A model generated the notes under the pieces. It searched no databases. It was not told where the DNA came from and saw only the letters and a program-made list of their open reading frames with translations. Positions 19,940-59,395 of a stretch of 59,395 nt of DNA are shown here, in pieces (position 1 is the stretch's first letter; every line of letters starts with the position of its first letter). Source of the DNA: a virus; the IMG/VR virus record IMGVR_UViG_3300009285_006554, positions 1 through 59,395 of that record. The stretch is one strand, 5' to 3'. The translations under genes were made by a program, and so were the position numbers.

Positions 19940-19971
19940 GGGCATAAGTTAAGTACACACTCACAAGGAGG
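19940..19971 (+). promoter_or_regulatory. Leader cassette: CATAAG box plus AAGGAGG ribosome site
   Basis: The sequence from GGGCATAAG to CACAAGGAGG closely matches the leader at 34821-34851 (GGGTATAAG to CACAAGGAGG), with AAGTACA conserved in the middle. CATAAG (19943-19948) is in the place of a -10 box, and AAGGAGG (19965-19971) sits six bases before the TTG start at 19978. Confidence 0.5.
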
Positions 19972-19977
19972 AATACT

Positions 19978-20397
19978 TTGGCCGCAACACAGAAAAAGGA
20001 AGAGGAAGCGAAGGTCACCCCCATCACCAAGGAGGACAAGAACGAGATCGCGGAGGCTATCCTGGCGCACCTCCGCGCCGAAGGAATCGTCGGGGAGGGG
20101 ACGAAGCTGGGTACCGTGGCGGAGGCCAGCAGCAAGGATTTCATCAAGCTGTTGCGTGACCCGGCCGTCCGGACGGCCGCCGTACAGGCCGTCCGCGAGG
20201 TGCGGGAGATCTACTCCGAGGGCACCCCCGGCTGGGTGGTGTCCCGGGCCTGGCGCTCCGGCGCCGGCGGCAAGACCCTCGTGGCCCTGGGGGCCGTGGG
20301 GGGAGTCACCGTCCTGGCCGTGGTGGTCGAGGGCGGCTGCCGGATCTTCGGGGTCACCGGGCCGCTCAGCATGCTGTTCGGGGGCAGCCAGGCCTAG
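19978..20397 (+). CDS. Small single-span membrane protein
   Basis: A 139-residue protein beginning at TTG 19978, chosen because a full AAGGAGG lies six bases upstream. The N-terminal 40 residues are charged and helical (KKEEEAKVTPITKEDKNEIA). The middle is soluble, and residues about 100-125 form one hydrophobic segment (TLVALGAVGGVTVLAVVVEG). The protein ends soon after. It stands alone between the regulator and a terminator and has a strong ribosome site, so it is probably made in quantity. A role at the cell membrane is likely; a holin or superinfection function is possible but unproved. Confidence 0.65.
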   Translation: MAATQKKEEEAKVTPITKEDKNEIAEAILAHLRAEGIVGEGTKLGTVAEASSKDFIKLLRDPAVRTAAVQAVREVREIYSEGTPGWVVSRAWRSGAGGKTLVALGAVGGVTVLAVVVEGGCRIFGVTGPLSMLFGGSQA

Positions 20398-20412: not shown

Positions 20413-20444
20413 CCCCGCGCCCTAACCGGCGCGGGGGTTTTTTT
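20413..20444 (+). terminator. Rho-independent terminator
   Basis: A 9-bp perfect stem, CCCCGCGCC (20413-20421) with GGCGCGGGG (20428-20436), a six-base loop, and seven T residues at 20438-20444. It ends the plus-strand transcript of 19978-20397. On the minus strand the hairpin has no T run, so it is not clearly a terminator for the terminase message. Confidence 0.9.
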
Positions 20445-23361
20445 AGTATCCATCCGCGTAGGGGGGGTCGTCGTTGTCCGTAAAGCCGTCTTCGCGCTCC
20501 TCCATCGGGGTGATGATGTCAGGACGGGGGTGCCTGATCATACTGACGAGGAAGCAGAGCAGGATGGAGTGGAAGGTGTCATCGGTGGTGCCCGGACTCC
20601 TGTGGTACTGGATCATGCGGGTCCGGGCGTTGAACTCGGCGAAGATGTTGAGAATGTCGGCGCCATAGGGGTCGTGGAAGTCTTCCCAGTGGGGGAGGTC
20701 GATCTGGCGGTTGCGCAGCGCGGCGAAGATGTCGCTCATCACCTCGGAGCGGTGCACCATGAAGCGCCCCATCAGGTCCTCGTAGTAGATCTTCCCCTTC
20801 CTCTGTTGGTTGTTGTACTGGTACTTGAGAACGCGCCCGGGCCCGAAGGAGCGGATCAACGCCTTGTTGCGGTCGAAGCCCCCGCCGTAGTCACAGCCCA
20901 CCTGCACCACATTGAAGCGCGCGATGATGTTCCGGATGGTGTCGAGCTGATACTCCGGCTCCAGCTCGCGGCCGGTGAATCGGTGCACCCAGAAGATGGT
21001 GAAGTTGCCCGTCCCCAGATACCCCCCGAGGGTCATGACGGTGAACGAGTTCTCCCCGGTATTTCCTTGGTAGGCGACACACCCGTTTCTCTCCGTGACG
21101 ATGTATCCAGATGGGACCTTGCAGCAGTACACCTTGCCCACGTATGGCACCTGCTCAACATGCTTTTTGGGGGTGTTGAGCTGGAAGTCACGGCCATGGG
21201 ACCACAATGCCCTCCAGCGTGCCTTTCTATTCCCCTCTTCCGGCTTGTGGAGGCGTACCACGCAGCGTTTGCCGAGACGTATGCACAGCTCTTGGAAGTC
21301 CTCACAGAGGCCCTTGGATGTTGAGTAGTAGGCACCATTGTTGTTGCCCTCACGCGGATCCTCGTATCCGTCACCGAGAGACATGGCATCAAACAGGATT
21401 TGAAGCTGTCTGCGCGACAGGTCGAAAAACTCGCGGGGGATGCGCTTCACATCGCCGGTCAGGCCCACATTCCTGGAAAACCAGTGCCAGTACTGTTTCC
21501 CATTGATTGACCAGTTTAGATCACCTGTCTCTGGATTCGGAAATTCGGAGTAAGGGATCCGCAGGCGATCCATGCAGTTCTTGATCTTCTTTGCGTTCTC
21601 GGGGGATACCGACTCACGCTGGGACATCCTCAGATGGTAGGGGACCAGATCACCTACCCTGTTTCTTTTAAGACAGACACCACCCTCCGCGAGCATGTAC
21701 CCGAGGAACTCCAGCCAATCATCCATTCGAAGTGTTCTACCGGTGCAACCAGAGTATCCCGGACTGGTGGGCAGCCCGGGGAGCAGGAAGTGTGCGCGTT
21801 CCTCCCCCACCCATCGGAGGTGTCCAACGAATTTGATGTTCCCACCCCGTTTGGAAGTCTTCTCCGATCTCTCCGTGACCCACGACTTCCCCTGCCGCCT
21901 GCCCACTCGCATGCGGTGCGTGTGTGTGAGTGCCATGTCCAATCCCTTGGCACGGTAGTGGTGGAGTGGTTGATCCCAGTTGCGGACGGTTCGTGCGATT
22001 GGGCGTACTAGGGACATTTCACGGGAGATAGGATCCCACTGGGCGACAAGGTCCCCGTCAGTTAGATCTCGGAAGTATTTCCACCCATCCTGAGTCAGGA
22101 TGCGCGTCTCCTCATCATGGCATCCCCAATCAAGCCCCGCCCAGATGGGGGTGTTCTGGGCGAACTGGAAGTAGTGCTCCAGGTCTCCGAGGTGGATCTC
22201 TTCGCGGCAGCAGGCCTGGAGCTGTACCTTACTGATGGGGCGCTGCCCGCTGTCGTAGCTCCGGCCGAGCACCTCGTTGTAGAACTGGGCACGCCCATAC
22301 CTCTGCTGCTTGCGGTGGATGTCATCCCACTCGTTGTTCAGGATCCACGGCACCATGATCTGCGGAAGGCGGTACCCCTCGTAGATGACCCGGTGCCTGT
22401 TCTCCTCGGTCTGTGGGTTGAGCTGCGCCCAGCGAGCCTCCGGGCAGTAGGGGTCGATGGGCCTGCCACACACGTCGCAGATCAACCCGTCCTTGCCGAT
22501 GTTGTTCTCGCCGAGGATGTTCCAGTGCCAGGACGACGGGTTCTTGGGGGTGCCATGGTGGAAGCAGGGGACGACCCACTCATTTTGGGTACTGTAGTTG
22601 CTCCAGTAGTGCTCGATGGTGTTGTCCACACTCTTGGGCGTCCCGGAGTAGACGAACTCCTTGAATGCGGAGTGGGAGGCACACTCCTCGATGACCGGGA
22701 GGTTGTCGGTGAGGATGTCCTGAAGCTCATCGACGAGGACCAGATCAGCCATGATTCCGCGGACCCGGTCAGCAGTGAGGTAGGCGTAGCGCAGCCGGAT
22801 GACGGAGTGGTTGACGAACTTCTTCTCCGCCATGGCGTTGGTCAGCTTGGAGTTGGTGTAGGCCTGGAGCGTCGGGCTGACATCGATCGGCTCCTGGATG
22901 CGATCCTTGCTGAAGTTGCGGCTTTGCTCAGCGGTGGGTGCCACATACAGTGCGCGGAACGCGGGGGTGATGCACATGCTGCCAAGGCAGAGGTTTCCCA
23001 GTGTGGTAGATTTTTCAACCTGCCTCCCAGCCATGAGCAGCTTGCGCTTGGCGGGGCTGTCGTAGATGCGCGGTAAGTAGGGTCGGCCCTCGAAGGAGAA
23101 CTGGGTGACCTGTCCCTTGATCGGGATGCGGATTGCAGTCGCGGCGAAGTCCGACGGGGACAGGCTGTAGTACTCCCCCAGCTCGAACCCGGGGTGATCA
23201 AGCACCGTCTCGTCGAACCCGAAGTCCTCGGGGATGCCGGCGTCGTTGTAGTCCCACCAGGGCTCAACGTACTCGACACCCTCCACGACCTGGGTGACGT
23301 ACCGGACCGGAACCAGGAGGCCCGAGTTGGTCTCCTGGAAGCTGTTGATGTCAACCAGCAA
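20443..23361 (-). CDS. Terminase large subunit interrupted by an intein
   Basis: The packaging motor: an ATPase that pumps DNA into the prohead and a nuclease that cuts it. The precursor is 972 residues; removal of the intein (residues 414-767) leaves 618, a normal length. ATPase motifs are AGRQVEKSTT (Walker A, about 111-120), ADLVLVDELQD (Walker B, about 205-215) and the SGTPKSVDN coupling motif. The nuclease domain has GLDWG (first Asp), GCDYGGGFDRNK and TDDTFHS. A CDVCG...C segment before the nuclease may bind zinc. The start is a TTG with no clear Shine-Dalgarno, overlapping the upstream gene by 11 bases, so coupling is likely. The small terminase subunit is not evident. Confidence 0.92.
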   Translation of the reverse strand: MLVDINSFQETNSGLLVPVRYVTQVVEGVEYVEPWWDYNDAGIPEDFGFDETVLDHPGFELGEYYSLSPSDFAATAIRIPIKGQVTQFSFEGRPYLPRIYDSPAKRKLLMAGRQVEKSTTLGNLCLGSMCITPAFRALYVAPTAEQSRNFSKDRIQEPIDVSPTLQAYTNSKLTNAMAEKKFVNHSVIRLRYAYLTADRVRGIMADLVLVDELQDILTDNLPVIEECASHSAFKEFVYSGTPKSVDNTIEHYWSNYSTQNEWVVPCFHHGTPKNPSSWHWNILGENNIGKDGLICDVCGRPIDPYCPEARWAQLNPQTEENRHRVIYEGYRLPQIMVPWILNNEWDDIHRKQQRYGRAQFYNEVLGRSYDSGQRPISKVQLQACCREEIHLGDLEHYFQFAQNTPIWAGLDWGCHDEETRILTQDGWKYFRDLTDGDLVAQWDPISREMSLVRPIARTVRNWDQPLHHYRAKGLDMALTHTHRMRVGRRQGKSWVTERSEKTSKRGGNIKFVGHLRWVGEERAHFLLPGLPTSPGYSGCTGRTLRMDDWLEFLGYMLAEGGVCLKRNRVGDLVPYHLRMSQRESVSPENAKKIKNCMDRLRIPYSEFPNPETGDLNWSINGKQYWHWFSRNVGLTGDVKRIPREFFDLSRRQLQILFDAMSLGDGYEDPREGNNNGAYYSTSKGLCEDFQELCIRLGKRCVVRLHKPEEGNRKARWRALWSHGRDFQLNTPKKHVEQVPYVGKVYCCKVPSGYIVTERNGCVAYQGNTGENSFTVMTLGGYLGTGNFTIFWVHRFTGRELEPEYQLDTIRNIIARFNVVQVGCDYGGGFDRNKALIRSFGPGRVLKYQYNNQQRKGKIYYEDLMGRFMVHRSEVMSDIFAALRNRQIDLPHWEDFHDPYGADILNIFAEFNARTRMIQYHRSPGTTDDTFHSILLCFLVSMIRHPRPDIITPMEEREDGFTDNDDPPYADGY
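21061..22122 (-). mobile_element. LAGLIDADG intein in the terminase nuclease site
   Basis: A 354-residue in-frame insertion that splices itself out of the terminase. It begins with Cys (CHDEETRILTQDGWKYFRDL) and has a block B T-x-x-H (MALTHTHRMRVG). It carries the two LAGLIDADG helices of a homing endonuclease (WLEFLGYMLAEGG and QILFDAMSLGDGYE). It ends with block F (VPYVGKVYCCKVPSGYIVTE) and NGCVAYQGN, followed by Thr as the first C-extein residue. The residue before the terminal Asn is Gly rather than the usual His. The insertion point is directly after GLDWG, the first catalytic Asp motif of the nuclease. All splicing blocks are present, so it looks active. Confidence 0.92.
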
Positions 23362-28489: not shown

Positions 28490-31400
28490 TCAGTACGGTG
28501 TTTCCTTGCCGAACTCCGCCCCGTAGGCAATGCCGGGGATCGGATGTGTGCCGTGGATATTACTTGACCAGTTTCGGGCCGCGGCGTCCATCACAGTCTC
28601 GTGCAGGCGCTCCCGGTTGAGGCGGGCCATCCAGTCCGACCGCACCTCCTTCGGCATGATGTTGATGCCACGGAGGAGTGGCCTCACCTGCGCCGGAGTC
28701 TTCCCTGCCTTGGACAGGGCACGGTTGGCCTCTCGGGTCTTGGACATGGGGACGAGATCCCCGCGGATAAGATCGTGGTTATCTCCAGGGTTTTGGATCT
28801 GCCCGACGTCCGTGATCGATCGAACCACGGTCTCCACGTTGCGGCGGCGCACACCACTGGAGCCATACAGACCATATAGCGAGTCCGCCAAATAGTTCTG
28901 CACCCGGTCGAGCCCCCCCAGGGGGAGCAGCTCGTGTGGGTTGATGGGCCCTGCCGACAGGGGGTCGCCCTTCCCGACGCCGACCCCAGCGTGCAGGGGC
29001 ACCAGATTACCACTCTTGGACATGATGGATGGCACCCCGCGGCTGTGAGGTACATAGTGCTTCACCCCCGCGATGACCACGTCATGGCCGCCGGCCGGGT
29101 TCTTCACGATGGAGCCAACCTTCCCCCCGACGGTGCTCAGTGTAGCCGACCCTGGGATCTTGTCGTACATGTGGATCAACTGCTTGACCCGAACGAAGTC
29201 GTCCGTCAGCGCGGCACCCTTCCTCCCGGCGGCACCCACAGGGGCGACACCACCCTCGTGAAAGACGCGCATGGACATCTGTGTGGCCGGCTCCCCCAAA
29301 GCCTGCCCAGAGATGATGCCCACGTTGGTCCCCTTGGAGGCCTTCTCCCCATTCTCATCCAGCCCGTAGCAGGTGGCACAGATGCTGCGCCCGTGCCGGC
29401 ACTTCAGTGGGCTGCGCACCAGCACCTGAGACACCTTGTTGTTCCTCAAGCTGTCCCGCACACCAGGGGTCACGAGTGTACCTGCCGCGTAGGTTCGGCG
29501 CCCCGACTTCACAGGAGCCGCCAGGAACCGGTCCAACACCTCCTTGTCCTGGACGGGAAGGGTGATCCCCTTGCTGGTCCCACAATCGTCAGACCCGATT
29601 GTGACATCCATGATGGCGTTGTTGATCTGCTTGGAAACGTAGCCGGGCTGGCTGACGGACTGGACCTTTTGTACCACACCCTTGCGGGCGCCAGACATCG
29701 AGGTCCAGTAGTCACCCACGTCCAAGCCCTCCGAATAGGATTTCCTGATCGGCTCGGGGATGATCTCACCCTTGGCGTTCATCATGAGCATGGGGGCCGC
29801 CCGGATCTGCCGGTAGACTGGCATGGTGGGCTTGATCCCTGCATTCATCATGTGCACCAGGTTGTTGTCCTTGCCCGTGAGACCCTTCCGCAACTCTGCT
29901 TCCATCTTCTGGCTGGCCGCATCGTAGATCTGTACAATCTTCGCATCGCGCTGCTCGGCGGTGAGCCCCTGTGTTGCACGCACGGCGTCGACGGCTCGAT
30001 CTGCCGCGCGCACATGCTTGTCGCGCATCTTCTTGTCGGCCGTGATGTCCGCGAGGCCGAGAGAGAACACCGTGTTGGTGGCGTGCCTGTTGCCGATGTC
30101 CTTGAGCTTGTTGGCCACGTCGGAAAACTGATCTTTATGCTTCCGCCCTATCTCCGAGAGAAGAGAGGACTGCCTCTTCTTGTCCAGGGGGTCCCCGAAC
30201 AGGATGTCGTCTCGGAGAGGGGCCGGGACGTTGTTGGCGACCATGTGTCGCCCCACGGTAGTCCTCTTCCCCCCTATGGTGGCCACCGCGTCAACGGCCA
30301 GAGATCCGGCCGCAACCGCCTTCGCCGCCTCTGCGACCGAGGTGAAGGTCTTCTTCGTCTCCTCCCCCATGCGGGTGGCCATGTAGAGCCCCAGCCTGGA
30401 CTCCTGCGCAGGGGTGTACATCACAGCCCCCGTCGCCGGGTGGAACAGGTTGTTCGAGGGGTGCATCTTGCGCGCCTCGAGCACCGCGTCCTCCGACAGG
30501 GGGATGTAGGCGTTCATCTGGTCCCCGTCGAAGTCGGCGTTGTACCCGCTGGTGACGAGAGGGTGCACCTTGATCGCCTTCCCGCTGATGAGGCGCGGCT
30601 TGAAGGCCTGGACACCGTACTTGTGCAGGACGGGGTCCCTCTTCAACAGCATCGGCCGCTGCTCAACAACCCTCTCGAGGGCACGCATGGCCAGGGGGTC
30701 CCCATCCTTGACAGCCTGCTGGGCCTGAAGGGGGGACATCCCGCTGATGTTGCGCAGTTCGCGAACGACGAATGGCTTGTAGACCTCCATGGCTGCCCCG
30801 CGCGGGAACCCAACCTCGTCCATCCCCATCTCGGGCTCAGGAACAATAACCCCGCGGGCACTGAGGTCCTGCCGGCGCTTTATCACCTTCTTCTGGAAGA
30901 AGCCCTCGGCGGGCTTCCCACCCTTGTCCTGCCCGCGCACCACCGTCTTGCCCCGAATGACGTCCAAGATCCCTCGGTAGTCCCGGTTCAGGTAGCCCCC
31001 CAGCCCGGACAAGCTCTTGGCGGCGTCGTACATCATGGCGCGCCGCTTATCCATCTCCTCCTTCGGCAGCAGGCGGGGGTTAGCTTCTCGCATCTTCTTC
31101 GCCGCCAGGCCGAGGCCCTTGTACATCCCATTCAGGTCATCCAGGTTGATGCCCCTGTCTGGCATCAAGGACAGCGGACGCATGGAAGGGGGCATGACGG
31201 GGATTTCTTTCGCCATGTAGGCGTCGGTGGGGGTCATGCCATGTGCGTCAAGCACCCGCAGGTAGCGTACCCGGCGGTTGGCCTGGTCCAGACGGTTGCC
31301 CGTGAGGCCCGGCTTGTTGAGGGCCACCTCGGCCGCGGCCAGGTCCTTTTTCACATCGATGCGCCCCAGAAGGTGCTCGATGGCCTGGCCGAACGCTAGA

Positions 31401-34400
31401 GATCCTTTGAGCTTGCCGTCCACGATGGTCCCCGTCTTGGGGTCCACCCCCAACGACCCATCCATGATCCCCGTGAACTCCTTGTTCTTGATGCCAGCGA
31501 CCCCTACGATGGCCTGCTCGAAGATCGGGTTGGGGATGCGCTCGGGGAGGGAGATGTGTGCCCACTTCGTCCCCTCCATCCCCCCCGTCACCTTCTTGTC
31601 GAACAGCCCATGGTCCTCCTCAAGGTCCGTCCTGCCAACGATCATGCGCCCCGGGTCGCGAAGCTCCCCGTTGCTCATCTCGAGGACCTGCTTGTCCGTC
31701 ATGGGCAGCAGCGAGATCTGGTTGCCGGACTTGGTCGTGTTGATCCCCAGCCCCTTGAGGTACCCCATGAACTTGTCGTAGGCGAAGGTGGGGCGCGGGG
31801 GAGGTAGGGGGGACCCGGACTGGATTGCCGACCACAGCTCATCGTTCATGTCGGCATTGCTCTTGTAGGTCTGCATGTCCCGAATGTTGTGCGTAGCCCC
31901 GTGGGCAAGCATCGCGTACAGCCCCAGGGCATCCATGCTCTGCGCACTCGTCTTGCCACCGGATCTGGGCATCCTGTCCCGGTCATAAGCGTACCCGGGG
32001 CCCCCAGATCGTGCCGTCAGCTTCCGGCCAACCTGATGCTTCAGCTTGTGGATGTACTGCTGCCCAGCCAACGCCTGCCCAGCATTGCGCATGGTGACTG
32101 CGCCCGTGGTGGGGTCCTTCTCGGGGATGAGGATGTCCTCCTTGTCCGTCAGCCCGTGTGCCTTGAGCTCGCGCTGGATCCTCGCGGTGATGTCCTGGGT
32201 TCCGTCGAAGTTCTGCACCCGGTAGGGCTTGCCCGTCTTCTCTGCAATCTTGGAGGCCGCGGTCTCCAGCATCTGACTCAGGTTCACGCGACCAGGCACC
32301 CCCGTGGGGTTCAGTACGATGTCGAGTATCTTGCCATCCGTGGTGCGGGGCATCTCGTCATCGGGGAAGATTCCAGTCACAATACCCTTGTTCCCGTGGC
32401 GCCCGGCGACCTTGTCCCCTATCTCCGCGGGCTCTGCCGTCTTGACGTGCACCTCGGCGCGCTTACCGCGGTGTATCACGTTGGTGACCACTCCAGGGTG
32501 GTCACTCTCCCAGCGCACCGCTACGTCGTCGAAGGGCTTGATGAGGCTCTTGTGCATGCGCCCCATCATCCGAGACTCATCATCGTCCTTCTTGCGCTTT
32601 CGAAGGGCGGCGATCAGCGTATCTCCAGGCTTTACAACCTGCCCAACACGGATCACACCGTTGGGGTCCAGCTTGTCTACCTGATCTCCGGTGAGCCTGG
32701 TTCCGTAGTGGGCCACATACTTCTTCTTGTCCAGAGCGTGGTCCTCGTCCAGGTCGACGCCCTTCCGGTGCATGTGAGTGCTCGCCAGCTTCTGCGCCGC
32801 GGACTCGCTGATCACCACCCCATCCTCATAGTTGTAGCCCTTGAAGGGGAAGTATCCGGCCCGGAGATTCGTACCCAGGGCCAACTGCCCACCCCGGGTG
32901 AAGTTCGTGTCCGCTACCACCTGCTTGGCCGCGACCCGGTCCCCCACCCTCACGAGGGGCTCTGAGTGCAGGAAGCTCTTCTCGTCGTTGAGGGGGAAGT
33001 GATCGTACGTCTGGACCTCGTGCCGCTTGCCCTTGCTGTCGCGGATCACTACTGCATCGTTTTTGACGGCCACAACCTCTCCCGAGACCGGAGACCGCTG
33101 GTGGCTCTGGGCCCCCAGAAGCTCATTGAACGTCTTGGAATTGGTGGACTTGTCGATAGTGGTTTGCACCAGGGGCACCTCGCGGTGCACCAACGGGATG
33201 GCTTGCTCCATGTGACGACCGGCCATGGTGGAGCGATTGCCCGAAGTGCTCTGCATGAACGGGATGAGGTTGGAGGCGGCAGAGAAGAGCTGCGTGGGGG
33301 AGCGCATGGCATAGTCCGCGTCGGCCAGGCTGACTTGCCCCACGTCGTTTCCGGGCATGGAGGCCTTGACCTTCCCGGACGCCGTGGGGCGCCCACCCTT
33401 CCAGCGGACCTGATCCGGCATCACCACAGTGGTCTTGTGGATCTGCTCGGGGGTCACCATCTCCATCTTCCCCTTCTTCAGGTTGAACAGCGGGACGGCG
33501 ACGGTATCCCCCCGCTTCTGGGCACCCATGGCCATCTGGAGGGACACGCCGGTCTTGTCCCCCTCCGGTGTGTGCATGGGGTCCAGAACGCCGAAGTGGG
33601 AGGGGTCCACCAACTTGGCATCCTCGGAGATCCTATGCGCCGAAGTGATTCCTTTCTCCCCGGTGATGGTGGTCTTCATGGCCCCACCCAACATCTCGAG
33701 CGGGTTGACCTGATCAGGGGTGCTGGACAAAGACGTCTTGGTGAACACCACGTGGATTGGCCTGTTCAGGATGTCCGGCTGCAGGACGTCGCGCACGTTG
33801 CGCTTCCTGTCGATGTTGTTGCCTATCCTGCGCATGATCTCCTTGGAGCGGTCCGTCAGACCCTCGGAGACGTAGTCTTCCACCGCGCGGAACCGCTTGA
33901 ACATCAGGGCATCGCGCGCGTCGGGCTTCGCCTCACCCCGGCTAATCCCCAACAGTTTGCCTGCCGCGGCACTCATGGCGTGCCCGTTAACGGTGTTGAA
34001 CTTCTGCCCGAGAGTCAGCTCTGTGACGCCGGGGTCCAGCTCGGCGGTCCTCATGAACTCACGGAGGCTCTCCCGCGCCGCGTGGACATCCTCCACCTTC
34101 GAGCCGACAACAGACTTGCTGAAGGCCATCAAGGCCTTCTCCCGGTCACCCCCCTGGTTGGCCCGCAGAATTTCCGGCCCCCACTGCTTCTCCAGGTCCT
34201 TGTCCGAGACCCCCATCTCCTGGAGGAGTGGGTACAGGGGGATGCTGGCTCCAGAGGAGGACTTCCGCACGTTGAACTTCGCCGTCTTCGGGTCGAAATC
34301 CATCCGGAATCCGCCGCCCTTGAAGTTGAATTGGGACTCCAGGTCGCCGCTGTCCGTGACGCGGGAGTAGACCCCCGGGCGCAAGACCCACTGGTTGTCG

Positions 34401-34726
34401 AGCTGGTACTCGGTGCCCCCCACGATATAGGAGTAGCGCCCAGTGGTCTTGGGCAGGTTCATGATCCGCATCTTCTTGCGGTCGATGACCCTCCCGTCCG
34501 GGCCGGTCAGGGAGACGTCCGCGTTGACTGGTATCTCCCAGCTCCGCCCCGCCTCCTTGGCCTTCTTCTGGGACCTGATGTCTCCGACCGGGAGGTTGTC
34601 TCGAATCTCCACGCTGTTGAGGACCAGGGAGTTCTTGCGCCCCTTGATGGGGAACATGCCCTCCAGGGTCTCCTGCACACGCCCCTTCAGGACGTCGAAG
34701 CCTTCTTGCGGTCTCAGATGTGCCAT
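28490..34726 (-). CDS. Single-chain multisubunit-type RNA polymerase (beta/beta-prime fusion)
   Basis: A DNA-dependent RNA polymerase of 2078 residues in which beta and beta-prime catalytic regions are one chain. Beta part (1 to about 1000): HTPEGDKTGVSLQ (near 385), NYEDGVVISE (632-641), GDKVAGRHGNKGIV (770-783) with catalytic Lys772 and Lys780, NPTGVPGRVNLSQMLE (806-821). Beta-prime part: clamp-helix region (about 1195-1240), NADFDGDQM (1396-1404) whose Asp1398, Asp1400 and Asp1402 bind the active-site magnesium, bridge helix (about 1675-1700), zinc ligands Cys1715, Cys1776, Cys1783 and Cys1786, trigger loop with GQALGEPATQMSMR (1807-1820). The N-terminal beta-prime zinc finger is absent and no linker separates the halves. 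No alpha, omega or sigma gene lies in the window. Start ATG follows GGGAGATCTGA. It heads a virion-gene operon. Confidence 0.96.
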   Translation of the reverse strand: MAHLRPQEGFDVLKGRVQETLEGMFPIKGRKNSLVLNSVEIRDNLPVGDIRSQKKAKEAGRSWEIPVNADVSLTGPDGRVIDRKKMRIMNLPKTTGRYSYIVGGTEYQLDNQWVLRPGVYSRVTDSGDLESQFNFKGGGFRMDFDPKTAKFNVRKSSSGASIPLYPLLQEMGVSDKDLEKQWGPEILRANQGGDREKALMAFSKSVVGSKVEDVHAARESLREFMRTAELDPGVTELTLGQKFNTVNGHAMSAAAGKLLGISRGEAKPDARDALMFKRFRAVEDYVSEGLTDRSKEIMRRIGNNIDRKRNVRDVLQPDILNRPIHVVFTKTSLSSTPDQVNPLEMLGGAMKTTITGEKGITSAHRISEDAKLVDPSHFGVLDPMHTPEGDKTGVSLQMAMGAQKRGDTVAVPLFNLKKGKMEMVTPEQIHKTTVVMPDQVRWKGGRPTASGKVKASMPGNDVGQVSLADADYAMRSPTQLFSAASNLIPFMQSTSGNRSTMAGRHMEQAIPLVHREVPLVQTTIDKSTNSKTFNELLGAQSHQRSPVSGEVVAVKNDAVVIRDSKGKRHEVQTYDHFPLNDEKSFLHSEPLVRVGDRVAAKQVVADTNFTRGGQLALGTNLRAGYFPFKGYNYEDGVVISESAAQKLASTHMHRKGVDLDEDHALDKKKYVAHYGTRLTGDQVDKLDPNGVIRVGQVVKPGDTLIAALRKRKKDDDESRMMGRMHKSLIKPFDDVAVRWESDHPGVVTNVIHRGKRAEVHVKTAEPAEIGDKVAGRHGNKGIVTGIFPDDEMPRTTDGKILDIVLNPTGVPGRVNLSQMLETAASKIAEKTGKPYRVQNFDGTQDITARIQRELKAHGLTDKEDILIPEKDPTTGAVTMRNAGQALAGQQYIHKLKHQVGRKLTARSGGPGYAYDRDRMPRSGGKTSAQSMDALGLYAMLAHGATHNIRDMQTYKSNADMNDELWSAIQSGSPLPPPRPTFAYDKFMGYLKGLGINTTKSGNQISLLPMTDKQVLEMSNGELRDPGRMIVGRTDLEEDHGLFDKKVTGGMEGTKWAHISLPERIPNPIFEQAIVGVAGIKNKEFTGIMDGSLGVDPKTGTIVDGKLKGSLAFGQAIEHLLGRIDVKKDLAAAEVALNKPGLTGNRLDQANRRVRYLRVLDAHGMTPTDAYMAKEIPVMPPSMRPLSLMPDRGINLDDLNGMYKGLGLAAKKMREANPRLLPKEEMDKRRAMMYDAAKSLSGLGGYLNRDYRGILDVIRGKTVVRGQDKGGKPAEGFFQKKVIKRRQDLSARGVIVPEPEMGMDEVGFPRGAAMEVYKPFVVRELRNISGMSPLQAQQAVKDGDPLAMRALERVVEQRPMLLKRDPVLHKYGVQAFKPRLISGKAIKVHPLVTSGYNADFDGDQMNAYIPLSEDAVLEARKMHPSNNLFHPATGAVMYTPAQESRLGLYMATRMGEETKKTFTSVAEAAKAVAAGSLAVDAVATIGGKRTTVGRHMVANNVPAPLRDDILFGDPLDKKRQSSLLSEIGRKHKDQFSDVANKLKDIGNRHATNTVFSLGLADITADKKMRDKHVRAADRAVDAVRATQGLTAEQRDAKIVQIYDAASQKMEAELRKGLTGKDNNLVHMMNAGIKPTMPVYRQIRAAPMLMMNAKGEIIPEPIRKSYSEGLDVGDYWTSMSGARKGVVQKVQSVSQPGYVSKQINNAIMDVTIGSDDCGTSKGITLPVQDKEVLDRFLAAPVKSGRRTYAAGTLVTPGVRDSLRNNKVSQVLVRSPLKCRHGRSICATCYGLDENGEKASKGTNVGIISGQALGEPATQMSMRVFHEGGVAPVGAAGRKGAALTDDFVRVKQLIHMYDKIPGSATLSTVGGKVGSIVKNPAGGHDVVIAGVKHYVPHSRGVPSIMSKSGNLVPLHAGVGVGKGDPLSAGPINPHELLPLGGLDRVQNYLADSLYGLYGSSGVRRRNVETVVRSITDVGQIQNPGDNHDLIRGDLVPMSKTREANRALSKAGKTPAQVRPLLRGINIMPKEVRSDWMARLNRERLHETVMDAAARNWSSNIHGTHPIPGIAYGAEFGKETPY

Positions 34727-42244: not shown

Positions 42245-42274
42245 GTGACAAAATCTCGGAACCATCGCTATAAG
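42245..42274 (+). promoter_or_regulatory. Sigma70-like promoter for the replication module
   Basis: GTGACA (42245-42250), an 18-base spacer and TATAAG (42269-42274). It lies back to back with the minus-strand promoter, the two -35 boxes being one base apart. The first plus-strand gene starts 45 bases later at 42319 behind GAGGAGG. Confidence 0.7.
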
Positions 42275-42702: not shown

Positions 42703-44607
42703 ATGCCGACCTTTCACACCAGGGAGCCCGGTGTTGCCTACACCGGGACATCCCTCTACCTCCCCAAAGAGGGAAGGAACGTCCGGGCGATCAAGAATGC
42801 GCTGGAGTTCCTGGTGAACGTCAACGGGGAGCAAGACACGCTGACCCTGTGGAAAGAGACGAGACACCACATCGTCGTGCCGCGATCTTTCCTTACGGAT
42901 GATCAGTTTGCAACCCTGCGCTGCCCTGTCGTAGATCTGGCACCGAAGGAGTACCCGCGGATCCTGTTTCACAGCAAGGTGGTCCCCGACAAGCTGTGGC
43001 CAGACAAGACAATCCAGAGGGACGCCCTCGCCGCATGGGAGCAGCACGCGCGTGGGCGGGGCGGAATCCTGAATCTGGCATGCATCTCCGGCGAAACAGA
43101 ACTTCGACTCCACCGGGCGGGAAAGGGGTTCCGGATGGATGCGGCCACTGCCCACGATCGTTTTAATGACTTGGGAAACCGCTATCGGTGGGATCCAAGA
43201 ATCCCGACATTCATCCGCAGCAACCAGGGGGGGCTTGTGGGGCTGCAGGAGGTTATCGGCATCTCCTTCAATGGATTTCGCTGCACGGAAGAGATGCGGT
43301 TGGAGAACGGGATGGTTCTCCGGGTCACCGACGATCACGAGATCCTAACTCCGGGTGGGTGGGTTCAGCGGGGGGTTCTGGGGGCCGGAGACTACGTCAT
43401 GGTGGAGGGGTCGGGAAGCGCGGTGGTCCCCGCCAAGATCGTGAGCATGGGGGGAAGACGCCGAGAGCGCGTCTTCGACGTGGCATGCCGTGGTCCTAAT
43501 CACAACTACGTGGCTGGGGGTGTCGTAGTCCACAATTGTGGGAAGGGTAAGACGGTAGTGGCCCTGGAATGCATTTCCAGGCTCGCGATGCCGGCGCTGA
43601 TCATCGTGGGGCAGTCCACCATCATGAATCAGTGGCGGGACAGGATCAAGGAGCTACTCGGGTTCGATGGGGGGATCGGAGTCATCCAGGGGGATCCGCG
43701 GGGGTGGGACTGGGAGCGCCCGATCACCGTCGCGATGCTCCAGACCCTGGCTAGGTACGCGGACGCCATATCTCCCGCCATGCGGCGCCACTTCGGCAGC
43801 ATCTGGTGGGACGAGGTGCACCACCTCTCCGCTCCCACCTTCTGCATCACCTCGGACATGTTCCCCGGGCAGCGCTACGGCCTGTCCGCCACCCTGGGCA
43901 GGGAAGATGGTCTGGAGCCGATCTACTACTACCACATTGGCAGACCCTTCCACACCAACCTGCTGCAGGAGATCGCGCCCACTGTCTACTTCCGCCGGAC
44001 GCCATTCACGGTGGACATGCACGACCCGACCGTCTTTGCGGCGGTGACGGACAAGACCGGGAACCTCAACCTGTCCCGGCTCCGCACATATATGGGTACC
44101 AGACCAGATCGCATAGCCTACCAGTGCCGAGACATCCGCCGGTGTCTGAATGCCGGGCGAAAGATCCTGGCCCTGAGCCACAGCAGGGAGCAGTTGGAGC
44201 TCATGCACCAGATCTTCGGTGAGGAGATCTCGGGCCTATGCACCGGGAAGCAGAGCGTGATCAAGCGCTGGGACGCCCTGCGCCACAAGCAGCTCATCTT
44301 CGGCACCCACCAGTTGGTGCTGGAGGCCATCGATGAGAAGACCCTCGACTTTTTAATCTGGCTCACCCCCTACGGCAGCTCTCACCCGGACGGGGGGGTC
44401 AACGCCCTGCAGCAGGGTATGGGGCGCATCCAGAGACACTACGAGGGAAAGCCCACCCCCAAGGTGTTGATCTACGACGACATGCACGTTCGGGATTTCA
44501 ACCGGATGTGCAACAGGCTCCGCCACCAGCTGCTGAACTGGCCGGCACACAAGGGTGGGCCTTACCGCCCCATCAACCTGCCATTGCTGGAGGACTTCGA
44601 TGTCTGA
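42703..44607 (+). CDS. SF2 DNA helicase (UvsW/XPB-like) interrupted by a mini-intein
   Basis: A DNA-dependent ATPase/helicase. The precursor is 634 residues and the spliced form 482. After splicing, Walker A is formed by LNLA joined to CGKGKT. Walker B is WWDEVHHL, motif III is GLSATLGRE, and motif VI is QQGMGRIQRH. The architecture resembles T4 UvsW and XPB-type branch-migration or repair helicases, with a separate N-terminal domain (residues 1-100). It is second in the rightward operon; UvsW-like enzymes act in recombination-dependent replication, which matches the RecA-like and RusA-like genes downstream. Confidence 0.9.
   Translation: MPTFHTREPGVAYTGTSLYLPKEGRNVRAIKNALEFLVNVNGEQDTLTLWKETRHHIVVPRSFLTDDQFATLRCPVVDLAPKEYPRILFHSKVVPDKLWPDKTIQRDALAAWEQHARGRGGILNLACISGETELRLHRAGKGFRMDAATAHDRFNDLGNRYRWDPRIPTFIRSNQGGLVGLQEVIGISFNGFRCTEEMRLENGMVLRVTDDHEILTPGGWVQRGVLGAGDYVMVEGSGSAVVPAKIVSMGGRRRERVFDVACRGPNHNYVAGGVVVHNCGKGKTVVALECISRLAMPALIIVGQSTIMNQWRDRIKELLGFDGGIGVIQGDPRGWDWERPITVAMLQTLARYADAISPAMRRHFGSIWWDEVHHLSAPTFCITSDMFPGQRYGLSATLGREDGLEPIYYYHIGRPFHTNLLQEIAPTVYFRRTPFTVDMHDPTVFAAVTDKTGNLNLSRLRTYMGTRPDRIAYQCRDIRRCLNAGRKILALSHSREQLELMHQIFGEEISGLCTGKQSVIKRWDALRHKQLIFGTHQLVLEAIDEKTLDFLIWLTPYGSSHPDGGVNALQQGMGRIQRHYEGKPTPKVLIYDDMHVRDFNRMCNRLRHQLLNWPAHKGGPYRPINLPLLEDFDV
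43081..43536 (+). mobile_element. Mini-intein in the helicase Walker A motif
   Basis: A 152-residue in-frame insertion (precursor residues 127-278). It starts CISGETELRLHRAG, has a block B T-x-x-H (LRVTDDHEILTPGGW), and ends with ERVFDVACRGPNHNYVAGG and VVVHN followed by Cys. Splicing residues Cys1, His and Asn at the end, and Cys+1 are all present. There is no endonuclease domain. It splits the P loop between Ala and Cys-Gly-Lys-Gly-Lys-Thr, so the helicase cannot bind ATP until splicing occurs. Confidence 0.92.
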
Positions 44608-51249: not shown

Positions 51250-52665
51250 ATGTGGCAGCAACTCCCTGAGCCGGAGTGGGTATCCACTCCGGAACGGACG
51301 CTCCAGGTCTGCCGGGAGATCCGGGACTGGAGGCAGTGCGCGATAGACACCGAGACCACCGGGTTGGATCGGCAGAAGGACTTCGTCAAGTTCTGGTCCC
51401 TCTGCCCCCACCCGGGGGTTCGGTACTGTCTGCCTGCCTCCATGCTCCCGGTCTTTTCCGCGGAGCTCGTCGCGAACCCGTACATCACCTGGATTCTCAC
51501 AAATGCGACATTCGATACGGCCATGCTCGAGAACAGCGGTGTGCCCCTGTTCGCGGGGCCCATCCGCTGCACCATCGTCATGGACTGGATGTTCGACGAG
51601 AACCGAGTGGGGCGTCATGGATTGAAGCAGTCCGCCAAGGACCACCTGCAGTTGACCATGAAGGAGTTCACAGAGGTGTTCCCGAAGGACCGCGGCGAGT
51701 CCATATCGGACGCCATGGATCGCCTTATGGAGATGGACCCCGCGGCAGGGATCGACTACGCCTCCATGGATGCCTGGGCCTCGCTGGGTGTGCACAACTT
51801 CCTGGAGGCTGAACTGTCCCGGCAGTACACCTACTACGGGGCCTCCCTCTTGGATGTCTTCCGGGAGATTGAGGTGCCCTACACCAAGCTCCTGCACATC
51901 ATGCAACGCCGCGGCGTTCCGGCATCAGAGCAGTACCTTCTCACCCTGAAGGAGCCTCTGGAGCGCGATGTGGCTCTTGCCCGCCGGGAGTTCACCCGGA
52001 TCGTAGGTAGGGAGGTCAACCTCAACAGCCCCAAGCAGCTGCAGAAGGTGTTCCTCGATGACCTGGGGCTCCCACCACTCAAGTGGACGAAGGGGGGCGC
52101 GAGCGGAAAGCGTCAGCCGTCGGTGGACGAAGACGTCCTGGTAAGGTACGCCGCCGACGGTGTGGAAGCAGCGATTGTCCTGATGAAGCACCGCAAGCTG
52201 GACAAGATGCTGGGCACCTACGTCATTGGCTTGCTCTCCCGCCTGGGTGCAGATTCGCGCATCTACACCAGCATCCTCCAGCACGGAACGCGCACAGGGC
52301 GCATCTCCTCCAGGGAGCCCAACCTGACGAACCTCCCGCGCCCCGACAGTGACGAGTATGCACTGCGCGGAGCGATAGTGGCCCCCAACGGGCGCCGGCT
52401 AAAGGCGGCCGACTACGGCCAGATGGAACAACGGGTTCTGGCCGATCTGTCTGGCGACGAGAACATGTGCTCTGTGATCAGTCGCGGGTGGGACATCCAC
52501 ATGGGCACCGCGAGTGTCATGTACGACGTGCCCTACGAGGAACTTGTCGCGGCCAAGAAGCAGGCCGGTAAGATGGAGCACGACAAGATCCCGAAGGACC
52601 GATGGCCTCAAAGGGTCACCTATCTGATGCTGCTGCGGCAAATCGCCAAGGCAATTGGCTTCGGT
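51250..52665 (+). CDS. DNA polymerase I-family polymerase, exon 1 (residues 1-472)
   Basis: First exon of the replicative DNA polymerase; spliced to 53306-53920 it gives 676 residues. The 3-prime-5-prime proofreading exonuclease is intact: IDTETTGLD (Exo I), TNATFDTAML (Exo II) and YASMD (Exo III). There is no 5-prime nuclease domain. The palm begins with HGTRTGRISSREPNLTNLPR, and motif A is AADYGQMEQRVLADLSGD with the metal-binding Asp. The exon ends inside motif B, at RQIAKAIGFG, exactly after a GGT codon. Without splicing the frame runs only to a stop shortly downstream and lacks motif C. The gene follows the zinc-rich protein by five bases. Confidence 0.93.
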
Positions 52666-53305
52666 CAACACACAGGCCGAAGAGAAACCTGCTCAAAACG
52701 GGGAAACCTAAGTGCCACGGCATAAGGCAATCCCGTGCTGCGCCGCCAGGCGTAGTGTATCGACTTGTGATCGCTACTCAGCGATCCTCAATGACGTACC
52801 TGTGTTCAGCAGGTCGGGTAGTCAACCCCGCAAACCGTCATTGACACGGCAGGCGAGGAGCGTAGTATTTGGACTATGGCAACGGCAACCATCGTGTGCA
52901 TCGACTGCAGGAAGAGGACTGTTCGCACTGGGCAGAATCAAAAGCGCTGCCCTAAGTGCCGACGATCCAACCACTTGCGGAAGTGCAAAGAACGATGGCA
53001 CCAGAACTACGAGAAGAAGGGGTACAACCAGAAGGGGCCAAACAACAACCACTGGAAAGGTGGTTGCTCTCCTGACTACTACCGGGAGATCGCAAAAGAA
53101 GCACATGGCCAACTCTGTATGCTCTGTGGCAATCCGGCAGTCCTTGTTCACCACAAGGATGCAGATCGCCGCAACAGCGACCCCTCCAACTTGGAGGTCC
53201 TGTGCAAGCGTTGTCATCAGGTTCTGGTGCATGACTGCACGCAGAACCTGCCCCAGTTCAAATCCTCGAAGGTATAGTCAGTCCCCTGGGAAACCAGGGA
53301 TTCAG
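52666..53305 (+). mobile_element. Group I intron carrying an HNH gene
   Basis: A 640-base self-splicing intron in DNA polymerase motif B. P1: exon end CTTCGGT pairs with GCCGAAG (52675-52681 region), leaving the diagnostic U.G pair at the splice site. P7: GACTAT (52872-52877) pairs with ATAGTC (53274-53279). P9: CCCTGG-GAAA-CCAGGG (53284-53299), a GNRA tetraloop. The intron ends in G (53305), and the joined frame reads GFG-TLNYGEG, restoring motif B. The HNH frame lies wholly between the two P7 strands. The P4-P6 core is plausible but I have not folded it fully. Confidence 0.92.
52876..53277 (+). CDS. Intron-encoded HNH homing endonuclease
   Basis: A 133-residue HNH endonuclease that should cut intronless copies of the polymerase gene. 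The N terminus has a zinc pair set (CIDC, CPKC) and a GPNNNHWKGG element of the NUMOD3-type DNA-binding motif. The HNH core is GQLCMLCGNPAVLVHHKDAD then NSDPSNLEVLCKRCHQ. The ATG overlaps the 5-prime strand of P7 and the TAG overlaps the 3-prime strand, so coding sequence and ribozyme core are interlocked. Confidence 0.9.
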   Translation: MATATIVCIDCRKRTVRTGQNQKRCPKCRRSNHLRKCKERWHQNYEKKGYNQKGPNNNHWKGGCSPDYYREIAKEAHGQLCMLCGNPAVLVHHKDADRRNSDPSNLEVLCKRCHQVLVHDCTQNLPQFKSSKV

Positions 53306-53920
53306 ACGCTGAACTACGGAGAGGGCACTGCAGCCCTGGCCCTGAAATTGGGTATCACCAAGGAAGAGGCCGAATCACGCATCGAGGACTACTTCCGTCC
53401 CTACCCCGGCGTCCGCGCCTTCATCGACGACACACATGACTCTGTGGCCGAGATAGGGGAAGTCTACACCATAGTGGGGCGCAAACGCCGACTGCCAGAA
53501 GCTGTCTCGGACTGGCGCGAGGGGTTTTACGGGGCGAACTGCAGGTGGGTCGAGCGTCGCCCGGGCCCCTACGGGGCGCAGGCTATGCGGCAGTCAGTCA
53601 ACTCCAGGATACAGGGATCTGTTGGAGACATCCTCAAACTGGCACAGCTCCGGATTGAGGGTATCGAGGGTTTCGAGAACGAGCATGCGGAGCGGCTGCG
53701 CGAGCTGGGGTACCAGCAGCTACTGCAGATTCACGACGAGGTCCTGGGGGAGGAGCCTGATGAACCCGGGGTGGATGAAGAAGTCAACCGCCACCTGCTT
53801 GCCGTGATGGAGAACCCTCTCGTGGACATGCCCGAGCGCCTCGGCATGCCCATGAGAAAGTTGAAGGTTCCTCTGACGGTGGATATTGGCAGTGGGCGTA
53901 CCTGGATAGAGGCGCACTAA
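53306..53920 (+). CDS. DNA polymerase I-family polymerase, exon 2 (residues 473-676)
   Basis: Second exon, 204 residues plus stop. It resumes motif B with TLNYGEGTAALALKLGITKE and contains the fingers/palm helices (SRIEDYFRPYPGVRAFIDDT), a G-R-K-R-R-L-P element and motif C, LLQIHDEVLGEE, whose His-Asp-Glu is catalytic. It ends with WIEAH. Read alone it is in frame with sequence inside the intron, but no sensible start exists there; it is expressed by splicing to 51250-52665. Confidence 0.93.
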   Translation, partial: TLNYGEGTAALALKLGITKEEAESRIEDYFRPYPGVRAFIDDTHDSVAEIGEVYTIVGRKRRLPEAVSDWREGFYGANCRWVERRPGPYGAQAMRQSVNSRIQGSVGDILKLAQLRIEGIEGFENEHAERLRELGYQQLLQIHDEVLGEEPDEPGVDEEVNRHLLAVMENPLVDMPERLGMPMRKLKVPLTVDIGSGRTWIEAH

Positions 53921-56844: not shown

Positions 56845-57567
56845 ATGGATGACGGGCAGAGAAGATTGCTGGATGGTGACGGCATCGAGATGAGCCTTGA
56901 GGAGGCCCAGCGCTTCTACGAATCTGTAGGGCCAGCCTCCGACAAAATCGTGGCAGAGATGGGTCTCCGCGCGCTGGACCACCCCACGATGGGGTTCCGG
57001 GCTGGAGACGACTACCCATGCCTCCCAACGAACCTGATGGACCTGAGCGACCGGGAGTTGGGGGAGCTTCACACGCGCTTCGAGGCGTGGCAGACATACC
57101 TCGGTCCCTTGATTGCCGACCTGGAGACCCGCACGTCTGCAGCGAAGGATTGGATGGAGCACATCGAGGCCTCCCTTCGCGAGGGGCTCAGCGGGACCGA
57201 TGATAAGAGGCGGCGCAAGGCACGGCTGGACCGGCGCTACGTGATCGCCAAGACGGATTGGCGCGTTCTGGACACGGCGCTGATCAAGGCCCTGGCACAC
57301 TACAAGACGTTCGCCGGGGGGGAGAAGGTTGTGTCCCGGAACATTACGCTCCGGCAGCAGCAGAACCAGACATTCAACCGCAGCGACAACATCCAGAGCG
57401 CCCGCAATATTTTCCGAAGATCTGCCATGGCCCGGGGGTCAGAGACCCTGCCCTACCGGGAGGAGCGCGACCCCACGAGGGCCCAGCAGATGCGGAGTCG
57501 GCCATCCCGGCCTGCCACAAGTACAGGGAGGCCACCAATCCGGCCCGGGAGGCGCGTGGATGAGTAG
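56845..57567 (+). CDS. Hypothetical helical basic protein
   Basis: A 240-residue protein. The first 150 residues are helical and charged (MSLEEAQRFYESVGPASDKI, GELHTRFEAWQTYLGPLIAD); the last 50 are basic and unstructured (EERDPTRAQQMRSRPSRPAT). It overlaps the RusA-like gene by eight bases. The basic tail suggests nucleic-acid contact. No domain recognised. Confidence 0.55.
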   Translation: MDDGQRRLLDGDGIEMSLEEAQRFYESVGPASDKIVAEMGLRALDHPTMGFRAGDDYPCLPTNLMDLSDRELGELHTRFEAWQTYLGPLIADLETRTSAAKDWMEHIEASLREGLSGTDDKRRRKARLDRRYVIAKTDWRVLDTALIKALAHYKTFAGGEKVVSRNITLRQQQNQTFNRSDNIQSARNIFRRSAMARGSETLPYREERDPTRAQQMRSRPSRPATSTGRPPIRPGRRVDE

Positions 57568-58093
57568 CCTGCACGTTGTCCTGCCACTCCCCCCATCCCT
57601 CAACCATCTGTACTTCAACCACCCCAAGGGGGGTCGGAGGCTGTCCACCGCCGGGGAGCAGTACAAGAACCTGGCGAAGGCTCAGATCTCCGCAGAGACA
57701 GGTGTACTGTCGGGGCCCGAGTGGGACCCCAACGCACGATACCGCCTAGAGATCCTCCTCTACTTCCCTGAGCTGGAGAATGCTGGGTGGTACGAGTTCC
57801 ACGACCACGATGAGTCCCCCGTCTACCTGCAGGGGGCACAGAAGGGGGAGCCCAAGCGCCACACAAGCGGACCCCTCGCCGGAAAGCTCCGGACGTCTTT
57901 CTACAAGAAGGGTGACCGGAAGGCCCAAACCAGGTGGAAGGCCTACGACACCGGGAACTTCGAGAAGTGCATCGGCGACGCCCTGAAAGACCTCCTGGGT
58001 GTTGACGACCGAGCGACATTCGTCGTGCACCTGGAGAAGGATGAAGATCGAGACAACCCACGCGCCGTGGTGTGGCTGAAGGAGATCACATGA
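57560..58093 (+). CDS. RusA-like Holliday junction resolvase
   Basis: A 177-residue endonuclease. ATG 57560 overlaps the preceding stop. The N terminus is a RusA-like start (VVLPLPPSLNHLYFNHPKGG). The key block is KAYDTGNFEKCIGDALKDLL followed by GVDD; the Asp residues of D-x-x-x-x-x-K-x-x-x-D-A-L and the V-D-D pair bind metal in RusA. The end is a beta strand (NPRAVVWLKEIT). An extra charged loop (KGEPKRHTSGPLAGKLRTSF) makes it longer than RusA (120 residues). It resolves junctions in recombination or before packaging. Confidence 0.82.
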   Translation: MSSLHVVLPLPPSLNHLYFNHPKGGRRLSTAGEQYKNLAKAQISAETGVLSGPEWDPNARYRLEILLYFPELENAGWYEFHDHDESPVYLQGAQKGEPKRHTSGPLAGKLRTSFYKKGDRKAQTRWKAYDTGNFEKCIGDALKDLLGVDDRATFVVHLEKDEDRDNPRAVVWLKEIT

Positions 58094-58512
58094 AGCACAC
58101 GGACACCCACTACTACTTCGAGACAACTCGGAAGGAGGGCAAGAGGAGGGTCACCGACACACACCAGGTGCCCTGGGAAGAGTTCAACAAGACAGAGCTG
58201 ATGGCGCTGGCCATCCGGGACCATGATGGGACGACCCTTGGCCACAAGATCTGGGATCGAATCCATGTAGGGCTCCGCCGACAAGACCTCATCCGCATGG
58301 TGTGCGGGGAGCTACCAGAGAATCTCGACACCAACCCGATACACCGCCTTCGGGAAGCGATCCACGGGGGACTCCGTGACAACTGGCGGTTCATCAACAC
58401 GCAGGTCCGGTGCAGCACAAACTGCGCCGAGTGCCCCGACGCACAGCCGGTATCCTGCTACCTGATCAACGAAAGAAGCATCATCCGTCCCAAGGACAGG
58501 GACATACTGTAA
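58090..58512 (+). CDS. Small protein with C-terminal Cys cluster
   Basis: A 140-residue protein; ATG 58090 overlaps the RusA-like stop (ATGA) and follows AAGGAGATCAC. The N-terminal 100 residues are helical (TELMALAIRDHDGTTLGHKI), and the end has VRCSTNCAECPDAQPVSCYL, four Cys that could hold zinc or Fe-S. No family named. It is one of at least ten proteins in the window with such clusters. Confidence 0.6.
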   Translation: MKHTDTHYYFETTRKEGKRRVTDTHQVPWEEFNKTELMALAIRDHDGTTLGHKIWDRIHVGLRRQDLIRMVCGELPENLDTNPIHRLREAIHGGLRDNWRFINTQVRCSTNCAECPDAQPVSCYLINERSIIRPKDRDIL

Positions 58513-58525
58513 GGAGGAAGTTCAA

Positions 58526-59140
58526 ATGAGCGATAGCGCAGCCGTTTTCACCCGTGGACAGCTTGGCGAGATGCGCCGCAGCGCCATCTTCAAGGAGGCC
58601 GTCAAGCTGGGCCTGACCGTGGAGCAGTACCAGGCCATGGACTTCCCCGAGGTGGTCGAGTGGTACCTGGCACACCAGGAGGGGGGACCCGAGCACGGGA
58701 CCTCCGTGGCCTCGGTGGACAAGAGCAAGGCGGACCCCAGCACCGACAAGAGCAAGGAGGAGCCCAAGAAGCGTGGCGCCCCGCGGGGTGCCCGGGGGCG
58801 CGGGAGCCGCGCCGCGGAGGAGAAGGCCCCGGAGGAGAAGGCCCCGGAGGAGAAGGCCGCAGAGCCGCCCGCCGCGGGCGGGGGGGGCTGTGACCTGCAC
58901 CCCCTGCTGGACCGGATCTCGGACCTCATCAAGGAGCAGGCGGCACAGGCTGAGCAGCTGAGGGTCTTCGCCGCCACCGAGAACGACAACAACGCCAAGC
59001 TGTTCGACGAGATCGGGGAGCTGCGGGCGGACATGTTCATCGTCAAGGAGATCGTCAAGGCGATCTACGAGGCGGTGGAGAACCCGGCCGCCGCCGGCAA
59101 GCACATCGCGGAGCTGGAGGCCCAGGTCTCGGGAAACTGA
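58526..59140 (+). CDS. Protein with EEKAP repeats and coiled-coil C terminus
   Basis: A 204-residue protein with one of the best ribosome sites in the window (TAAGGAGGAAG). Residues 5-52 are a small helical domain (LGEMRRSAIFKEAVKLGLTV). Residues about 60-120 are Lys/Glu/Ala/Pro-rich with tandem EEKAP units (exact 15-base DNA repeats near 58819-58858). Residues about 125-200 form a coiled coil (ELRADMFIVKEIVKAIYEAV). It may be an oligomeric adaptor. Function unknown. Confidence 0.6.
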   Translation: MSDSAAVFTRGQLGEMRRSAIFKEAVKLGLTVEQYQAMDFPEVVEWYLAHQEGGPEHGTSVASVDKSKADPSTDKSKEEPKKRGAPRGARGRGSRAAEEKAPEEKAPEEKAAEPPAAGGGGCDLHPLLDRISDLIKEQAAQAEQLRVFAATENDNNAKLFDEIGELRADMFIVKEIVKAIYEAVENPAAAGKHIAELEAQVSGN

Positions 59141-59151
59141 CCAACAGGGGG

Positions 59152-59292
59152 GTGCTCCACATCCACGACTGGGAGTTCTACGCGATGACACTCCCGGAGC
59201 TACACGCACTGTGTGGGCTGGTAGGCATCAGCATCCAGGGGCTGGACACTGGTGAGAAGACCCGCACAGCCCTCCTCAACGACGCACTGTAA
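59152..59292 (+). CDS. Possible 46-residue SAP/HeH-like protein
   Basis: A short frame from GTG 59152 to TAA 59290-59292. The core reads MTLPELHALCGLVGISIQGL followed by D-T-G-E-K-T-R-T-A-L-L-N-D-A-L. This matches the helix-extended-loop-helix form L-x-x-L-x-x-x-L-G-I-x-x-x-G-x-K-x-x-L-I of SAP or HeH motifs that bind nucleic acid. The start is uncertain (AGGGGG directly precedes the GTG), and initiation may be coupled to the stop at 59138-59140. Confidence 0.5.
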   Translation: MLHIHDWEFYAMTLPELHALCGLVGISIQGLDTGEKTRTALLNDAL

Positions 59293-59293
59293 A

Positions 59294-59338
59294 CCTCCTC
59301 CGGGCATCGTTATAAGATGTGTGGATGCCCGGAGGAGG
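59294..59338 (+). promoter_or_regulatory. Hairpin that hides a ribosome site, with a promoter -10 box in its loop
   Basis: A perfect 14-bp inverted repeat: CCTCCTCCGGGCAT (59294-59307) and ATGCCCGGAGGAGG (59325-59338), with a 17-base loop. The 3-prime arm is the ribosome site of the gene at 59346. The loop contains TATAAG (59311-59316). A transcript started from that box would begin near 59322-59324 and lack the 5-prime arm. Confidence 0.7.
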
Positions 59339-59345
59339 AATTTCT

Positions 59346-59395
59346 ATGCCGAAAGAACGTATGCTGGACGGCGACCTGCTGAAGAAGCAGGTCGC
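59346..59395 (+). CDS. Partial gene at right edge
   Basis: Only 16 complete codons are visible, starting MPKERMLDGDLLKKQV. The ATG follows GGAGGAGG with seven bases between, an excellent site that is part of the hairpin just upstream. Too little is present to suggest a function. Confidence 0.6.
   Translation, partial: MPKERMLDGDLLKKQV

Follow-up and report, generated by a model that had tools for sequence, protein, structure and literature searches.

At the extreme end of its plus-strand operon, the window, i.e., the whole stretch of 59,395 bases analysed here and recorded as a virus in IMG/VR, carries a perfect hairpin that is wrapped around a promoter and contains the Shine-Dalgarno sequence of the next gene in its 3' arm. 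We somewhat favor the reading that this hairpin hides the ribosome site in read-through RNA of the upstream operon, its likely role being the insulation of the last gene. The arms, the promoter boxes, their spacing, the conservation of the promoter, and the lack of a good terminator were read directly from the sequence. The elements of the site are as follows:

59287-59294, plus strand: -35 box of the internal promoter, CTGTAAAC
59294-59308, plus strand: 5' arm of the hairpin, CCTCCTCCGGGCATC, situated in the promoter spacer and the perfect 15-bp complement of 59324-59338
59309-59323: hairpin loop of 15 nt, GTTATAAGATGTGTG
59311-59316, plus strand: -10 box TATAAG, in the hairpin loop
59322-59324, plus strand: predicted transcription start, placed by the usual distance from the -10 box
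59324-59338, plus strand: 3' arm of the hairpin, GATGCCCGGAGGAGG, pairing perfectly with 59294-59308
59331-59338, plus strand: Shine-Dalgarno sequence GGAGGAGG, wholly within the 3' arm and 7 nt before the ATG at 59346
59346-59395, plus strand: first 16 codons of the edge gene, MPKERMLDGDLLKKQV, cut off by the contig end

The inverted repeat is perfect, lacks any G-U pair, and is centered near the -10 box; within the 5' arm, CCTCCTCC is complementary to the Shine-Dalgarno sequence. The initial annotation had described a perfect 14-bp hairpin that buries the ribosome site of the edge gene in read-through RNA. The hairpin was confirmed with 15 perfect pairs, one more than had been counted, and the masking fold is supported by the calculated opening costs given below. 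This is the longest perfect stem in all 59,395 bases when loops of up to 40 nt are allowed, with a runner-up of 12 pairs, and the longest stem in the simulated controls (20 first-order sequences, loops up to 20 nt) also had 12 pairs. Computed folding gave -32.4 kcal/mol for the stem-loop alone. The 116-nt end piece reached -55.6 kcal/mol, compared to -32.1 +/- 3.7 in shuffles (z = -6.4), a value to which a second, unrelated 10-bp stem (59371-59395) contributes part.

Assuming that transcription of the upstream operon reads through into the hairpin region, the two RNAs would differ in the state of the ribosome site. The read-through RNA would contain both arms and fold, so that the next gene would be poorly translated, while RNA starting at the internal promoter (from about 59323) would carry the 3' arm only, leaving GGAGGAGG open for translation. 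According to the calculations, opening GGAGGAGG costs 20.9-22.1 kcal/mol in the read-through RNA vs. 3.7-4.5 kcal/mol in the internal RNA, and the predicted mean unpaired probability of the Shine-Dalgarno sequence is <0.001 vs. about 0.55, respectively. The ribosome site is thus predicted to be closed in the former and largely open in the latter. The spacer between the promoter boxes is exactly complementary to the ribosome-site region of the gene that follows; in this arrangement, the last gene would rely on its own promoter instead of the roughly 17-kb upstream operon, which is the job of a terminator in the relatives described below. The edge gene is recognized as coding only by its Shine-Dalgarno sequence, its ATG, and 16 open codons, and no convincing homologue was found among the fetched loci.

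The same repeat could act as DNA, i.e., as an operator at which a repressor or activator controls the promoter, with a half-site on either side of the -10 box. Its perfection without G-U pairs and its center near the -10 box would suit such a role; an operator, however, would not need the exact Shine-Dalgarno complement that is included, the half-sites of 15 bp with centers 30 bp apart would be unusual for a dimer, and no further copy of the inverted repeat was found elsewhere in the window or in IMG/VR, so we judge this reading to be quite improbable. Slightly less probable still is a functionless repeat that arose by chance, by recent inverted duplication, or as an assembly product near the contig end. 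The hairpin is known from one contig only, 57 nt from its end, and in none of the relatives (hence there is no covariation), and a second perfect inverted repeat makes up the contig end itself. An artefact, however, would have no reason to keep either the 16-nt box spacing or the normal spacing between the Shine-Dalgarno sequence and the ATG, both of which are intact across the hairpin. Because the spacing of the promoter boxes is conserved and that from the Shine-Dalgarno sequence to the ATG is normal, we argue that the stretch 59287-59348 is genuine. An exact search of IMG/VR for both arms returned no match; Rfam gave no covariance-model match in 57000-59395 (L001) and a lone weak match elsewhere (L021), far under the gathering score. 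The perfect, mismatch-free stem could reflect a recent inverted duplication. Regarding the contig end, the terminal perfect 10-bp inverted repeat at 59371-59395 (GCGACCTGCT-GAAGA-AGCAGGTCGC) may have arisen either by chance within the coding frame or through a fold-back during assembly.

From about 42.3 kb onward to its end, the plus strand bears replication and recombination genes, including those for a helicase, a RecA/UvsX-like protein, a Holliday junction resolvase, a Cas4-like exonuclease, and RusA. On the minus strand, a 2,078-aa protein (28490-34726) combines the beta and beta' RNA polymerase regions in a single chain with the DFDGD active-site motif, and its relatives in IMG/VR show 57-58% and about 30% identity. 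The fused polymerase is reminiscent of the RNAP-encoding Caudovirales (PMC7481178). Among other features of the window, the DNA polymerase A-type gene (52083-53920) is split, with the N-terminal part stopping near 52725 and the C-terminal part resuming in a different frame; an HNH-like frame (52876-53277) is located between the two parts, and the interruption is possibly an intron with a homing endonuclease. Likewise, the terminase-like (20443-23361, minus strand) and helicase (42703-44607, plus strand) proteins bear long insertions resembling inteins, with, for example, 'GCHDEETRILTQDG' and 'CISGETELRLHRAG' near the start and N at the end, before the motif resumes.

The search with the RNA polymerase retrieved contigs whose polymerase is 57-58% identical, two of which (G003 and G007) share the gene order around the hairpin site, and alignments of two neighboring genes added further relatives. 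Searches with single proteins of the neighboring genes found no relatives, whereas the polymerase and the small alignments did retrieve them; no relative was found among the GTDB genome contigs. At the homologous place, five relatives possess a stem-loop terminator followed by a promoter with a 16-nt spacer, and the window promoter, CTGTAAAC-16-TATAAG, has the same place and spacing:

L030: CTACAAAC-16-CATAAG
L139: CTGCAAAA-16-GATAAG
L143: CTGCAAAC-16-TATAAG
G003: GTAAAAAA-16-CATAAG
G007: GTGAAAAA-16-CTTAAG

These sites are located at 15455 in L030, 13556 in L139, 13249 in L143, and near 12130 (minus strand) in both G003 and G007. Three other relatives (L144, L147, and L151) are without a promoter at the homologous site and have the terminator directly next.

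A standard sigma-70 scan reported no promoter at the hairpin because the -35 box is A-rich and not TTGACA. A matrix was taken from the relatives only, using ten of their promoters and none from the window; the training sites were chosen by eye, and the matrix tests the transfer to the window, not promoter function. With both strands ranked, the four top sites of the window were 42269, 19943, 59311, and 34790, all of them on the plus strand, intergenic, and upstream of plus-strand genes. The score of the third-ranked site, 59311, was attained 0.05 times on average in simulations. When the training set was split, 59311 ranked second with the operon-end promoters only and third with the operon-head promoters only. 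Additionally, the motif WCGYTATAAG has three copies in the window (34786, 42265, and 59307), all intergenic and on the plus strand, and the sites orthologous to 34786 and 42265 have TATAAG in G003 and G007 as well. The best matrix site heads the operon in which the hairpin is found:

42269-42274, plus strand: -10 box of the same promoter class as 59311, heading the operon from which read-through RNA would reach the hairpin; the orthologous site in G003 and G007 likewise has TATAAG

Another high-scoring promoter of this class (CTGAAAAT, 16 nt, CATAAG; -10 box at 19943-19948, plus strand) is situated between the genes 19227-19922 and 19978-20397. Taken from sequence comparison, the internal promoter at 59311 is strongly supported. 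The claim of the initial annotation that TATAAG in the loop belongs to a promoter is thereby backed by five related contigs and the relatives-only matrix, and its proposed start at about 59322-59324, which would remove the 5' arm, is likewise supported, with the start deduced from the -10 box distance. The spacer (59295-59310) is almost wholly occupied by the 5' arm, and the predicted +1 coincides with the first bases of the 3' arm; therefore, the internal transcript would be without the entire 5' arm.

The main difference between the window and its relatives concerns what accompanies this promoter. No hairpin surrounds it in the five relatives, where the fold around the promoter amounts to -0.7 to -4.2 kcal/mol vs. 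-33.5 kcal/mol in the window, and a terminator scan of the window gave no recognizable terminator at the hairpin site. Because the relatives combine a terminator with a weak fold, and the window a strong fold with no terminator, the simplest reading is that the hairpin acts as a translational insulator replacing the terminator. Tentatively, and with less confidence than in the masking itself, we propose that in this lineage the hairpin around the promoter took over from the terminator that set the last, variable unit apart, so that the separation would now be translational, and that the freely varying spacer was co-opted as the masking strand. The hairpin could instead be a degenerate or bidirectional transcription terminator in place of those of the relatives, its overlap with the ribosome site being incidental. 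Its stem is highly stable and, like the intrinsic terminators of L030, L139, L143, G003, and G007, forms a strong G+C-rich structure placed after the same gene and before the variable last unit. However, the terminators of the relatives precede the promoter rather than enclose it, the 15-nt loop is long for a terminator, and the stem is followed by AATTTCT (plus strand) or TTTACAG (minus strand) instead of a T-run, in line with the silence of the terminator scan. An intrinsic terminator, with its G+C-rich stem, short loop, and T-run, was rejected as a candidate given the loop and the AATTTCT tail, and the terminator reading as a whole appears improbable to us.

The early operon ends in a conserved promoter, and the unit driven by it differs in every relative, with 127 aa in G003, 67 aa in G007, 101 aa in L143, and no clear frame in L139. 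From the sequences compared, this operon end looks like a variable cargo site.

The main rival to insulation is translational coupling, which involves the frame that precedes the hairpin:

59137-59292, plus strand: preceding open frame, a possible -1 frameshift extension of the gene 58526-59140, with homologues in G003, G007, L030, L139, and L144

The stop codon of this frame, TAA at 59290-59292, lies 1 nt before the 5' arm. A ribosome stopping there, which the initial annotation overlooked, would cover CCTCCTCC and could open the stem, allowing the next gene to start. The edge gene in the read-through RNA would then depend on ribosomes finishing the preceding frame, and the internal promoter would be a second, independent supply. 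In constrained folding, the stop is indeed placed such that a stopped ribosome disrupts the mask, since, with pairing barred under it, the ribosome site is calculated to open for about 4 instead of about 22 kcal/mol. On the other hand, the preceding frame is without a clear start of its own and is apparently entered through a -1 frameshift at GGGAAAC, which would bring few ribosomes to its stop, and the terminator found here in the relatives argues for separation. Coupling is therefore unlikely in our assessment, although it deserves more weight than any other rival. As to the frame itself, the coiled-coil-like early gene 58526-59140 has the slippery heptamer GGGAAAC (59131-59137), correctly phased, shortly upstream of its stop, and the -1 frame continues into a conserved domain and ends at 59292. 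The heptamer is also present in six relatives (G003, G007, L139, L143, L147, and L151). A programmed -1 frameshift is probable on these sequence features, and, because the -1 frame lies behind the slippery GGGAAAC, the ribosomes entering the preceding frame are probably a minority.

Masked ribosome sites through which translation is coupled are known, for example, from the replicase genes of RNA phages. The window resembles such systems in having a masked ribosome site that could be opened by ribosomes of the upstream frame; it differs in that the masking arm closely follows the upstream stop codon instead of lying inside the upstream coding frame, and in that an internal promoter would supply unmasked RNA.

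The reading in which the hairpin insulates the last gene is closer to phage T4. The ribosome site of T4 gene e is hidden in long early RNAs, late promoters within the DNA encoding the 5' strand produce open RNAs, and lysozyme output from the hidden form is lower by about 100-fold; ribosome-site hairpins bypassed by downstream late promoters are also listed for soc, gene 49, and the I-TevI gene (PMC3014915). In both gene e and the predicted structure of the window, the ribosome site lies in a helix in the longer RNA, and a promoter within the DNA encoding the 5' strand would give a shorter RNA without that strand. The stem of the window is longer and perfect, and its relatives have a terminator in the place of the hairpin. 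The T4 hairpin is a time gate, since the long RNAs are made early and the bypass promoters act late, whereas the bypass promoter of the window (59311), judged by sequence, shares its class with the promoter heading the upstream operon (42269) and does not fall into a later one. The parallel with gene e and soc drawn in the initial annotation thus holds for the predicted sequestration of the Shine-Dalgarno sequence and for the promoter that bypasses the 5' strand, but not for a later promoter class. Its further suggestion that the edge gene is restricted to the time when this promoter fires was rejected, as an early/late time gate is unsupported when the head of the read-through operon has the same promoter class, so that the two RNAs need not differ in phase. 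The operon-head promoters carry an extra upstream GTCAA element that is absent from the operon-end promoters; given this difference, the two may be regulated differently.

A scan of IMG/VR for CCTCCT, TATAAG, and AGGAGG in this order found 57 stretches vs. 47 for a control with GAATAT, with long stems before genes about equally many, and we make no claim that the arrangement of hairpin and promoter recurs across IMG/VR. The logic of T4 gene e is already known, and, judged by its sequence, the hairpin of the window would be an additional case. If our reading is true, this trick would operate in a very different phage, one with its own large fused RNA polymerase, and would separate two transcription units, not two infection phases. 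The comparison also yields a usable promoter consensus for a little-studied phage group (roughly CTGYAAAM, 16 nt, TATAAG), and the terminator in the relatives versus the hairpin here would offer a natural contrast for studying the evolution of insulation.
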